Position numbers and translations under genes: made by a program
The notes under the pieces: generated by a model
The model's input: the letters and a program-made list of their open reading frames with translations, nothing else
Databases searched by the model: none
Told to the model about the DNA's origin: nothing
Part shown: positions 11,969 through 35,212 of the stretch, piece by piece
How the letters are laid out: each line of letters begins with the position of its first letter
Position numbering within the stretch: position 1 is the stretch's first letter
NCBI GenBank assembly: GCA_947495135.1
Contig: CANLXN010000001.1
Coordinates: 558,001-622,000, forward strand
Source: an uncultured Flavobacteriaceae bacterium
Lineage (GTDB): Bacteria; Bacteroidota; Bacteroidia; Flavobacteriales; Flavobacteriaceae
Length of the DNA: 64,000 nt
Direction of reading: 5' to 3'

Positions 11969-12042
<74 letters not shown>

Positions 12043-12068
12043 GGATGTAATTTGTTCTTAAAAGTCTC

Positions 12069-12129
12069 TAGGCTGTTTCAACCGTCCCGCTCAAAAGAGG
12101 GATGCTCTATCCAGCTGAGCCATGCGACC
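12069..12129 (-). pseudogene. Decayed tRNA-Arg duplicate
   Basis: The first 27 bases on the minus strand copy the neighbouring tRNA-Arg with a single change (GGTCGCATGGCTCAGCTGGA...). The anticodon arm then carries an oversized loop and a mismatch, the T-arm is reduced to GGTTGAAAC (one base lost from GGTTCGAATC), and no 3' acceptor strand can pair. It lies between tRNA-Pro and tRNA-Arg and looks like a recent tandem duplicate that has lost function. Confidence 0.75.
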
Positions 12130-12137
12130 TTTAAAAT

Positions 12138-12163
12138 AAAAACCGAACTATTGTTCGGTTTTT
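12138..12163 (-). terminator. Hairpin with A- and T-runs after tRNA-Pro
   Basis: A perfect 11-bp inverted repeat (AAAAACCGAAC/GTTCGGTTTTT, 4-nt loop) sits 2 bp after the 3' end of tRNA-Pro. It can act in both directions. It would end or weaken transcription from tRNA-Pro, or serve as a processing signal, before the pseudo-tRNA and tRNA-Arg. Confidence 0.7.
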
Positions 12164-12164
12164 G

Positions 12165-12239
12165 TCGGGGTGGCAGGATTCGAACCTGCGACCTCCTGCT
12201 CCCAAAGCAGGCGCGATAACCGGGCTACGCTACACCCCG
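12165..12239 (-). tRNA. tRNA-Pro (anticodon TGG)
   Basis: A complete 75-nt cloverleaf: acceptor CGGGGTG/CACCCCG, anticodon loop TTTGGGA in the stem CCTGC/GCAGG giving TGG, T-arm GCAGGTTCGAATCCTGC, discriminator A. Its neighbours in the same direction are tRNA-Ser, 8 bp upstream, and tRNA-Arg. Confidence 0.97.
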
Positions 12240-12247
12240 TGCATTTG

Positions 12248-12331
12248 CGGAGAGACAGGGATTCGAACCCTGGCGACCGTTACCAGTCGACAGATTAGCA
12301 ATCTGCTCCATTACCACTCTGGCACCTCTCC
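12248..12331 (-). tRNA. tRNA-Ser (anticodon GCT)
   Basis: An 84-nt class II tRNA: acceptor GGAGAGG/TCTCTCC, anticodon loop TTGCTAA giving GCT, a long variable arm (CGACTGGTAACGGTCG), T-arm CAGGGTTCGAATCCCTG, discriminator G as expected for serine. First gene of the tRNA operon. Confidence 0.97.
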
Positions 12332-32643: not shown

Positions 32644-34332
32644 TTAATACGCATCGTCATGTACGTTCGCAACGGCGCGTCCACTTGGATCGTTCATATT
32701 TTTGAAACTTTCATCCCAAGCAAGGGCAACAGGACTGCTACAAGCAACACTTGGTACCGATGGTACACTTAATGCTGCTGCATCGCTAGGGAAGTGTTCT
32801 TCAAAGATAGAACGATAGAAGAATTCCTCTTTACTCGTTGGAGGTTGAATTGGGAATCGGTATGCAGCGTTCGCTAATTGATCGTCTGTTACTTCGCTAT
32901 TTACCATCTCTTTTAAAGTATCTATCCAGTTGTAGCCAACGCCGTCACTAAATTGTTCTTTTTGTCTCCATGCAACGCTTTCAGGTAACATATCGCCCAA
33001 AGCTTCTCGAAGCACCCATTTTTCCATTGCTTGTTTGTCTTGCGGAATGCTTTGTCCAGCAATGATCATTTTATCTTTAGGGTTGAGACGCATTGCCACA
33101 TCCATAAATTCTTTGTCTAAAAAGGGTACTCGGCCTTCAATTCCCCAAGAGGCTAAAGATTTATTCGCTCTTAGGCAATCGTACATGTGCAATTTATCCA
33201 GTTTTCGTACATTTTCCTCATGGAAATCTTTCGCAGTTGGTGCTTTATGGAAGTAGAGATAACCTCCAAAGATCTCGTCAGCTCCTTCTCCAGATAGCAC
33301 CATTTTAATTCCCATTGCCTTAATCGCACGCGCTAATAAAAACATTGGAGTTGAAGCTCTAATGGTTGTTATGTCGTAGGTTTCAACATGATAAATAACA
33401 TCTCTCAATGCGTCAATTCCCTCTTGAATCGTAAAATGAATTTCGTGATGAACAGTATCTAAATGGTCTGCTACTACTTGCGCTGCTGCCAGATCTGGAG
33501 AACCTTCTAGACCAATGGCAAACGAATGTAAGCGTGGGTACCATGCGCTGTCTTTTCCTCCACTTTCAACTCGTTTATCTGCATACTTTTTGGCTAGGGC
33601 AGAAGTTAAAGAAGAGTCTAAACCTCCAGATAGTAATACTCCGTAAGGTACATCACTCATAAGCTGTCTGTTTACAGCTGCGTCTAAGGCATTTCTTAAG
33701 TCCTCAAGGCTAGTAACATTATCTTTTATGTTTTCGTATTCCATCCAATCTCTGGTCCACCAGCGCTTTAACTCACCATCGCTACTATGCATATAGTGAC
33801 CAGGAGGGAAGAGCTCTATTTTAGTGCAAACACCTTCCAATGCTTTCAATTCGGATGCCACGTAAAACGTACCATTTTTATCCCAGCCCATGTATAAAGG
33901 AATAATTCCCATGTGGTCGCGAGCAATAAGGTATTCGTCTTTTTCAACATCATAAACTGCGAATCCGAAGATTCCGTTTAGTTCGTCTAAGAATGAAGCA
34001 CCTTTTTCCTTGAATAGAGGAAGAATTACTTCACAATCGGACGCCGTTTGAAAGTTATACGACCCTTCAAATTGTTTACGAAGTTCTTTGTGATTGTAGA
34101 TCTCTCCGTTTGCAGCCAGCACCAAATTCTTGTCGGCAGAGAATAAAGGCTGCTTTCCTGAAGTTGGATCCACAATGGCCAAGCGTTCATGTGCCATAAT
34201 TGTTTTGTCGTTGTCAAAGATTCCACTCCAATCCGGACCGCGATGCCTTATACATTTAGACATTTCTAATAGTTGAGGGCGCAAAGTCTCAGCAGACTGT
34301 TTTAGATCGAACGCGCATACAATTCCACACAT
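32644..34332 (-). CDS. asnB: Asparagine synthase B (glutamine-hydrolysing)
   Basis: A 562-residue two-domain enzyme. The class II glutaminase domain begins at Cys2 (MCGIVCAFD) with RHRGPDWSG and HERLAIVD. The synthetase domain has the ATP-pyrophosphatase loop LLSGGLDSSLTSALA and SGEGADEIFGGY. It makes asparagine from aspartate, glutamine and ATP. The leader upstream of the ATG carries an Asn-rich leader peptide gene (34458-34508) and a terminator (34400-34433), so expression is almost certainly attenuated by asparaginyl-tRNA supply. A strong terminator closes the transcript. Confidence 0.97.
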   Translation of the reverse strand: MCGIVCAFDLKQSAETLRPQLLEMSKCIRHRGPDWSGIFDNDKTIMAHERLAIVDPTSGKQPLFSADKNLVLAANGEIYNHKELRKQFEGSYNFQTASDCEVILPLFKEKGASFLDELNGIFGFAVYDVEKDEYLIARDHMGIIPLYMGWDKNGTFYVASELKALEGVCTKIELFPPGHYMHSSDGELKRWWTRDWMEYENIKDNVTSLEDLRNALDAAVNRQLMSDVPYGVLLSGGLDSSLTSALAKKYADKRVESGGKDSAWYPRLHSFAIGLEGSPDLAAAQVVADHLDTVHHEIHFTIQEGIDALRDVIYHVETYDITTIRASTPMFLLARAIKAMGIKMVLSGEGADEIFGGYLYFHKAPTAKDFHEENVRKLDKLHMYDCLRANKSLASWGIEGRVPFLDKEFMDVAMRLNPKDKMIIAGQSIPQDKQAMEKWVLREALGDMLPESVAWRQKEQFSDGVGYNWIDTLKEMVNSEVTDDQLANAAYRFPIQPPTSKEEFFYRSIFEEHFPSDAAALSVPSVPSVACSSPVALAWDESFKNMNDPSGRAVANVHDDAY

Positions 34333-34399
34333 AATTTTAATTTTTTAATTGATTAGTTAATGTTTTTCAGTTTAGCGCCTACCTTAGAAAGGATAAGGC

Positions 34400-34433
34400 A
34401 AAAAAAAACCCGTCAAGTTGAAAACCTGACGGG
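34400..34433 (-). terminator. Attenuator terminator in the asnB leader
   Basis: On the minus strand an 11-bp stem (CCCGTCAGGTT pairing with AACTTGACGGG, one G-U, loop TTC; 34409-34433) is followed by nine T residues (34400-34408). It lies 25 bp after the leader-peptide stop and about 68 bp before the asnB ATG, so it sits inside the transcript. The 5' arm segment AGGTTTT (34421-34427) can instead pair with GAAACCT (34450-34456), giving a possible antiterminator just after the Asn codons. Confidence 0.88.
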
Positions 34434-34457
34434 CAATAATATTGCGACAAGGTTTCG

Positions 34458-34508
34458 TTACGGAATCCGATTATTATTGTTATTATTATTTAAAATGAAA
34501 TGTAACAT
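34458..34508 (-). CDS. asnB leader peptide with seven consecutive Asn codons
   Basis: ATG at 34508 opens a 16-codon frame, MLHFILNNNNNNNRIP, ending with TAA at 34458. Codons 7-13 are AAT AAT AAT AAC AAT AAT AAT. It precedes the terminator hairpin of the asnB leader on the same strand. In established attenuation systems (trp, his, leu leaders), a ribosome stalled at codons of the scarce amino acid prevents terminator formation; a ribosome that reads through allows it. The amino acid read here is the product of the downstream enzyme, which makes chance unlikely. It is far too short for routine gene callers. Confidence 0.85.
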   Translation of the reverse strand: MLHFILNNNNNNNRIP

Positions 34509-34690
34509 GACCTTTGTTTTATCTTTATTGAAGTTCAATATTCCATAAAATTTTTAAGGAATCCAAATTTTTGAATATAAAAATTAATTTGCAAGGCAAT
34601 CATATTTCATGTAAGGCCAATAAAATGAGGCTTTTACGAGCCCTCTATTTTTTTTAATACTAAGCAAATGAAGAAGAGGTATAAAAGTTC
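34509..34690. other. Intergenic region upstream of the asnB leader
   Basis: No coding frame of note. It should hold the asnB promoter, but no exact TAnnTTTG box is seen at a suitable place on the minus strand. A short hairpin lies at 34627-34645 (listed separately). Confidence 0.5.
34627..34645 (-). terminator. Weak hairpin after the PepSY-like gene
   Basis: GAGGCT/AGCC(C)TC with one bulged base, preceded by a run of A and followed by ATTTTATT on the minus strand. It lies about 45 bp after the stop of the gene ending at 34691, and could end that transcript. Confidence 0.4.
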
Positions 34691-35212
34691 TTAGATAAAG
34701 GCAAAAATTTCAGTTGGCAATTTGTGTTTTTCAATTACGTTCCCGTTGTTGTCGAAATAAATGTATCGCAGCATTCCATCGTTGTTCAGTCGGACCCGAT
34801 AGACAAATCGCTTGGGGTTTTCAATATCGATTAATTCTGCAGACTTAATTTTCTTTTGTTGAAAATGAGTATTGCAATAGTCTTGTATTCCTTCCGGAAG
34901 ATCGAACGAATTAACATATACAGAGTAGGCGAGTAGTGTTCCAATTTCAGAATAATAGGCATAGTTACCTACTCTTCCATTTTTCTTAAAATTAGCCATG
35001 TAATAAGTTAAATCATCCTGAATCAATTTATTTTTCACGTGTAGCTTCCATCCAATAACGAATCCATCATTGAATTGCATGTTTTGTGCTCTTATAACCT
35101 CGCTTGGAACAGACGATTCGTTAATAGTTTGACGGTCTACATCTTTGTATTGACCAATGCCGTTAGTTATAAAACACAATAAAAGTACAGAGGAAAGTAA
35201 TGTAGTCTTCAT
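34691..35212 (-). CDS. Exported protein, possibly PepSY-like
   Basis: A 173-residue protein with a signal peptide (MKTTLLSSVLLLCFITNGIG). The body has the pattern of PepSY-like periplasmic proteins: VPSEVIRAQNMQF, then a WKL ... YYMANFKKNGRVGNYAYYSEIG strand pair, and a second FVYRVRLNNDGMLRYIYFDNNGNVI unit. PepSY-type domains are often periplasmic ligand- or protease-binding modules; assignment is tentative. It stands alone between the E1 fusion gene and asnB, all on the minus strand. Confidence 0.75.
   Translation of the reverse strand: MKTTLLSSVLLLCFITNGIGQYKDVDRQTINESSVPSEVIRAQNMQFNDGFVIGWKLHVKNKLIQDDLTYYMANFKKNGRVGNYAYYSEIGTLLAYSVYVNSFDLPEGIQDYCNTHFQQKKIKSAELIDIENPKRFVYRVRLNNDGMLRYIYFDNNGNVIEKHKLPTEIFAFI

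Follow-up and report, generated by a model that had tools for sequence, protein, structure and literature searches.

Sequence comparison indicates that the leader of asnB in an uncultured Flavobacteriaceae bacterium very probably attenuates transcription by a ribosome-mediated mechanism that would sense charged tRNA-Asn and let the gene respond to asparagine. We found the leader in a stretch of 64,000 nt (GenBank assembly GCA_947495135.1, contig CANLXN010000001.1, positions 558,001 to 622,000), referred to here as the window. A short open reading frame (ORF) with a run of Asn codons is followed by two mutually exclusive RNA pairings, the second of which is an intrinsic terminator upstream of asnB. 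This layout recurs before asnB in related genomes and, with unrelated sequence, in another genus of the family.

An Asn-rich short ORF and an intrinsic terminator precede asnB

The features of the locus are collected in Table 1. The product of asnB matches NCBIfam NF006949, asparagine synthase B, with 903 bits (cut-off, 499). The original prediction placed an ATG frame of 16 codons, seven of them Asn, upstream of this gene, and direct reading of the sequence bore this out: the codons are ATG TTA CAT TTC ATT TTA AAT AAT AAT AAC AAT AAT AAT CGG ATT CCG TAA. A run of seven AAY codons occurs once in the whole 4.29-Mb genome, in the asnB leader, and in each of the other five frames of the window the longest Asn run is 2 or 3.

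Table 1. Features of the asnB locus, in window positions
Feature	Position	Strand	Evidence
asnB, glutamine-hydrolysing asparagine synthase, 562 aa (predicted regulated gene)	32644..34332	minus	ORF list and NCBIfam
Leader peptide ORF MLHFILNNNNNNNRIP and stop codon	34458..34508	minus	Sequence; 62 distinct leaders agree in position and composition
Putative control codons, 7 consecutive Asn (AAT AAT AAT AAC AAT AAT AAT)	34470..34490	minus	AAY run of seven, unique in genome
Region 1 (ACAAAGGT), 1 nt 5' of leader start codon; possible pairing partner of region 2	34510..34517	minus	Duplex and swap tests
Region 2 (GAAACCTTGTCGC), putative antiterminator 5' strand, 1 nt past leader stop codon	34444..34456	minus	Pairing P = 0.050 in window
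Region 3 (GCCCGTCAGGTTTTC), terminator 5' arm and loop edge; also putative antiterminator 3' strand	34420..34434	minus	Pairing tests, pattern scan
Region 4 (AACTTGACGGGT), terminator 3' arm	34408..34419	minus	Folding, covariation, pattern scan
Nine T ending the intrinsic terminator	34400..34408	minus	Sequence
Possible promoter, TTG-N20-GAATATTG	34536..34566	minus	Inspection by eye; weak, 6/8 in -7 element
Stem-loop with T-rich tail	34628..34643	minus	Pattern scan only

The terminator stem-loop (34434-34408) has 12 pairs, with G-U allowed, and a loop of 3, and the first of its nine T residues (34408) doubles as the last base of the stem. A stem with nine T residues about 70 bp before asnB had been predicted and is present, with 67 nt between the T run and the asnB ATG (34332), but its predicted distance of 25 bp from the leader had to be corrected to 23 nt after the stop codon. 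Similarly, 34456-34450 (GAAACCT) can pair with 34427-34421 (AGGTTTT), as foreseen, but the former segment does not directly follow the Asn codons; it lies past the stop codon, 13 nt from the last of them. None of 200 shuffled sequences matched the stability of the real fold (leader, z = -3.4; 3' part of the leader, z = -4.2), and four terminator-like sites were found within 34300-34700, against 0.2 expected. When the pairings were scored in the window itself, regions 2 and 3 gave the P value in Table 1, and the pairing of regions 1 and 2 was not significant (P = 0.36 and 0.21). We concluded that the Asn leader and the terminator before asnB are confirmed as real.

Bacteroidota promoters follow the consensus TTG/TAnnTTTG, and the candidate promoter of the window is a poor match to this type. 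A scan for E. coli-type promoters found none, against 1.9 expected. The stem-loop farther upstream, which lies downstream of the gene at 34691-35212, probably terminates that gene, and the leader and asnB would then form a unit separate from that gene. Elsewhere in the window, three tRNA genes (Rfam RF00005) are clustered at 11969-12331 on the minus strand.

Leaders of the window's type are confined to one clade of asnB

We surveyed Flavobacteriaceae for leaders like that of the window, which we call type I. In a draw of one genome per genus (149 genomes), 131 had an asnB match at E <= 0.001. Upstream DNA was inspected for 109 matches (30 + 79 loci), made up of 103 close orthologues and six paralogues (47-51% identity); one match at a contig edge (G082), one partial gene (G048) and small fragments were left out. 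Among the 103 close orthologues, 17 had a type I leader with a strong terminator, 84 had no such leader of any kind, and one each had a terminator-bearing leader of another sequence (L103) or an Asn-rich ORF lacking a terminator (L092). The 15 best asnB matches of this survey, the window included, all carry a type I leader. In named genomes, the best 80 of 584 loci yielded 77 with usable upstream DNA, 28 of which carry a type I leader. Carriers include Aequorivita, Altibacter, Patiriisocius, Cochleicola, Marixanthomonas, Luteirhabdus, Pukyongia, Gilvibacter, Thermobacterium and Planktosalinus. Since six of these 28 leaders lie on the same contigs as members of the first set, the pooled total was 39 distinct leaders.

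A covariance model built from the 39 leaders was then searched in 397 Flavobacteriaceae genomes. It gave 41 matches of at least 52.6 bits, 40 of which (five of them in G101, G073, G105, G128 and G042) stand before asnB with an Asn ORF. The remaining match (G036; 53.8 bits) proved to be a plain terminator with no Asn run and no asnB within 300 nt. The same was true of eight weaker matches of 34-49 bits (G260 twice, G044, G348, G112, G209, G402 and G398), which are the ones inspected among many weak matches, so that an instance before another gene is possible. With 23 further leaders from the covariance-model searches, the collection came to 62 distinct type I leaders. In the window's own genus, eight of nine genomes have a model match of at least 66 bits; the asnB match of the ninth (G398) begins at residue 36, and the gene is perhaps truncated by the contig end.

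In a tree of 128 asnB rows built by a quick method, type I occurs only in a single clade of 41 rows, at a fork with a support of only 81. The leader is carried by 40 of these rows, and the other (L169) has only 2 nt of upstream sequence.

Several loci fell outside this picture. Closely similar terminators built on GACCTGTCAGGT/ACCTGACAGGTC occur at L227-L230 and L238 (genomes G036, G260, G044, G348 and G209); they may be a shared or mobile element, and each of these genomes has 6 to 12 covariance-model matches. An Asn-rich short ORF, MIFTFNNNNSNCLFAS, precedes asnB at L092/L246 (G131), but a terminator was not found there, and we therefore did not count it as an attenuator. The asnB match of G131 contains two stops. 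A search of the window's own genome for a His leader (four His codons in a row) gave 64 matches, 12 of which were inspected; the sole candidate short ORF, L317, had no his gene in the adjoining stretch inspected.

The antiterminator and terminator pairings of type I leaders are conserved

Region 2 typically reads AAACTTGTCG shortly past the stop codon, and its partner, region 3, reads CGTCARGTTT in the terminator 5' arm. Pairing of the two regions, which would form the antiterminator, was better than in shuffled sequences in all 39 leaders (P <= 0.05; median, 0.005). In the alignment, 99% of cells are paired, and G-C replaces A-U at columns 23/61 in eight rows. Swapping partners between species weakened the pairing, and none of 2,000 permutations was as good, in controls that, for shuffles and swaps alike, leave the relatedness of the rows in place. 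Only one of the eight antiterminator pairs changes on both sides, which by that measure is no more than in shuffles. We concluded that conservation of the antiterminator helix is stronger than its covariation. In the type I terminator, 7 of 11 pairs have compensatory changes. The aligned leaders of relatives thus keep the Asn run, the hairpins and the spacing, with compensatory changes, which agrees with the original prediction.

Region 1, which was not part of that prediction, often reads ACAAGTTT at the leader start codon and resembles region 3. Six leaders (L006, L087, L206, L220, L221 and L234) have matched changes in regions 1 and 2, as does the window when inspected by eye (ACAAAGGT opposite ACCTTGT), and only 1 of 2,000 permutations was as good in the swap test. 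The pairing was significant in 15 or 22 of the 39 leaders, depending on which strand was shuffled, and is absent in some (e.g., L007 and L129). Twelve leaders have an unusual region 2; the leader's own pair beat at least 90% of swaps in five of these (L087, L206, L221, L222 and L234) and did not in seven. Region 1 is possibly an anti-antiterminator, with weaker support than regions 2 to 4 have for their roles.

Unrelated Asn leaders precede asnB in other lineages

In another Flavobacteriaceae genus (g11; 23 genomes, 22 with asnB), we found an Asn attenuator-like leader whose sequence is unrelated to type I before asnB in 21 of the 22 genomes (L247-L249 and L286-L304, except L302). This type II leader has the layout of type I. 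Its peptide is typically MxxNNNxxxNNNxxx, with two Asn blocks. The terminator, typically GGTCTACTT...AAGTAGACC, is unlike that of type I and covaries. A GTAG core near the stop codon matches CTAC in the terminator 5' arm; pairing of regions 2 and 3 reached P <= 0.05 in 6 of 21 leaders, and covariation of the antiterminator in the type II set was not above that of shuffles. L249 differs from L248 by one matched change across regions 2, 3 and 4, a single event. All 21 leaders have a -7-like TAnnTTTR box 12-16 nt before the leader start codon (4 expected), at about 130-150 nt from asnB, and so the RNA that encodes the type II leader peptide is probably nearly leaderless. Before type I leaders, the strict form of this box occurs in 17 of 60 cases against 10 expected, a modest excess. 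L302 (G707), the only one of the 22 genomes with neither leader nor terminator before asnB, probably represents a loss of the leader.

We also drew 295 genomes across the class, which gave 34 full-length asnB matches besides the window's own. Upstream DNA was taken for 30 loci, 29 of which could be scanned (in L254, no start was found); G127, G131 and G320 were covered in other surveys, and G317 was left out. One of the 29, in G528, a member of another family, has the short ORF MKTQTHNNNRFFALASR, ended by a stop codon, together with a terminator, a hairpin of regions 1 and 2 and strong pairing of regions 2 and 3 (P = 0.003). No such leader was found in G461, the only other asnB holder of that genus. 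We regard G528 as a candidate third independent Asn attenuator (type III), known from a single genome. In the asnB tree, types I and II lie on separate branches amid many rows without a leader, and the Asn attenuator layout seems to have arisen more than once.

Leader composition and spacing argue for Asn as the signal

In the 62 type I leaders, Asn accounts for 419 of the 883 codons after the start codon (303 AAT and 116 AAC), followed by Leu with 98; Lys codons (AAA and AAG) number 15. The leaders have 11-19 codons, including 3-10 Asn each. The last Asn lies 3 codons before the stop in 48 leaders, 1 in nine, 2 in three and 5 in two. From the stop codon it is 6 nt to the CTTGT core in 55 of the 62 and 22-27 nt to the terminator in all 62, while the distance from terminator to asnB varies from 50 to 192 nt. 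This composition and near-fixed spacing indicate that the identity of the amino acid and the register between leader and RNA have been kept and the DNA letters have not.

Any halt of a ribosome in the leader would free region 2, and the frequent xxP or xxT end before the stop codon could slow termination; the leader might in that case sense general translation speed, as under antibiotic or cold stress, rather than asparagine. We consider this very unlikely, since Asn is by far the commonest residue and asnB makes asparagine, whereas a general sensor would need no Asn in two or three unrelated leaders.

A T-box binds its tRNA directly, lacks a leader peptide and requires one specifier codon. 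If the asnB leader were T-box-like, tRNA-Asn would bind the leader RNA and the ORF would be incidental, and there is a precedent in a few Firmicutes, where asnS is under T-box control (PMC2494555). Against this, type I leaders hold several in-frame Asn codons, with free exchange of AAT and AAC, instead of a single one. In the window, no T-box reached the Rfam gathering score, which only three tRNAs did, and none was among the 13 matches of a permissive Rfam scan of 34300-34650. Neither the window scan nor the low-threshold scan of the leader gave an RNA family for the asnB leader. Direct tRNA binding is still less probable than a sensor of translation speed.

AAT is commoner than AAC and the number of Asn codons varies, as might be expected if the run were a drifting AAT repeat in an AT-rich genome and the terminator belonged elsewhere. 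This explanation is scarcely credible, given that the runs mix AAT and AAC in frame with the start codon, that AAR codons are few in whole leaders, that the run ends at a near-fixed distance before the stop and is unique in the genome, that nearly all strong model matches stand before asnB, and that type II is an unrelated sequence with two Asn blocks. It is just as hard to credit that the conserved ORF, with its strong composition, encodes a functional small Asn-rich protein whose dose alone is set by the terminator, because distant members share little peptide outside the Asn run, lengths vary and the RNA pairings are conserved or covary.

A model of attenuation by translation of the leader

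Attenuation keyed to charged tRNA-Asn is the reading we prefer. From the parts, their order and their spacing, we infer translation of the leader, ribosome stalling, RNA switching, readthrough and a response to asparagine. As RNA polymerase moves through the leader, a ribosome would translate the 16 codons of the peptide. With Asn-tRNA plentiful, the ribosome would reach the stop codon and its footprint would cover region 2, a few nucleotides farther on; region 3 would then pair with region 4, and the terminator would stop transcription before asnB. With Asn-tRNA scarce, the ribosome would halt in the Asn run and leave region 2 free to pair with region 3, so that the terminator would not form and asnB would be transcribed. 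In type I, pairing of region 1 with region 2 would favor termination when the leader is untranslated. The genome encodes an asparaginyl-tRNA synthetase (AsnRS; 582 bits), and charging of tRNA-Asn can therefore depend on free asparagine.

To model the switch, we masked the bases under a ribosome, whose footprint was assumed to reach from 15 nt before the A-site base to 12 nt after it, and folded the RNA as far as the terminator loop. In this equilibrium calculation, the antiterminator counted as formed when it had more than 4 expected pairs. The antiterminator was predicted to form in 98% of the 62 leaders when the ribosome stood at the first Asn codon, in 87% at the middle one and in 97% at the last; with the ribosome at the stop codon, it formed in none. 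With no ribosome, it formed in 71%, which indicates that, by energies alone, region 1 does not keep the switch fully off by default. The modelled switching is what classical attenuation would give, except that its default-off state is imperfect.

The original prediction had likened the leader to classic attenuators. That reading is supported by the kept Asn run, spacing, antiterminator and terminator, by the position of 40 of the 41 strongest model matches before asnB and by the presence of type II in another genus.

Discussion

In a mostly marine group of bacteria, an asnB attenuator would put the synthesis of asparagine under a concrete and testable control circuit, and asparagine would join the amino acids known to be sensed by leader-peptide attenuation. 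It would also imply that transcription and translation in Bacteroidota are coupled closely enough for leader-peptide control. Its repeated origin before asnB would be a natural experiment in how attenuators arise, and the 62 type I leaders provide a basis for annotating asnB leaders.

In the openly accessible literature searched, we found no Asn-specific leader-peptide attenuator. A survey of attenuation in bacteria by Lopatovskaya et al. (2010; Mol Biol 44:128) may hold Asn cases. The original prediction had regarded an Asn leader of this type as one not known to be described in Bacteroidota; leader-peptide attenuation itself had already been reported in Flavobacterium (PMC9723704), and the mechanism class is thus not new to Flavobacteriaceae. 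We lean towards the view that Asn is an undescribed attenuation specificity, invented at least twice and perhaps three times in Bacteroidota for asnB, with unrelated sequences. In type I, the leader start region would act as an anti-antiterminator and make initiation part of the switch; in type II, in the other Flavobacteriaceae genus, the closeness of the -7-like box to the leader ATG (12-16 nt) would make the RNA nearly leaderless; and in type III, in one genome of another family, trp-like segments would lie inside and after the leader ORF.

The trp, his, thr, leu and ilv operons of enterobacteria are controlled by leader-peptide transcription attenuators. The asnB leaders share with these a short ORF rich in codons of the pathway's amino acid, a fixed spacing between codons and RNA, an antiterminator and an intrinsic terminator that exclude each other, and the placing of the terminator before the first gene; they differ in that the codons are for Asn and the target is asnB. 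In trp, the competing segment lies inside the leader ORF, whereas in type I the segment that may compete for region 2 is found where the leader itself starts, at its start codon. T-box control of asnS differs from the proposed mechanism in its direct binding of tRNA without a leader peptide and is found in another phylum, Firmicutes. The Bacteroid-trp RNA motif (RF01692) lies before trp genes, and thus before a different gene, and had no covariance-model match in the window or in the permissive leader scan. This motif is described as a Bacteroidetes motif that is probably cis-regulatory (PMC2864571), and the T-box of asnS shares with the asnB leader a control keyed to tRNA-Asn charging (PMC2494555).

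In Bacteroides thetaiotaomicron, a member of the same phylum, short ORFs in long 5' untranslated regions have been called reminiscent of leader peptides (PMC7366714), and like the asnB ORF they are suspected leader peptides; the main text of that paper mentions neither asnB nor asparagine. In Flavobacterium psychrophilum, leader-peptide attenuation has been reported for amino-acid operons, and 5' elements, those of pheA and hisG included, are named as present in other genera (PMC9723704). Asparagine and asnB are absent from the main text of this report, and the attenuators that it describes share with those proposed here both the family of bacteria and the proposed class of mechanism.
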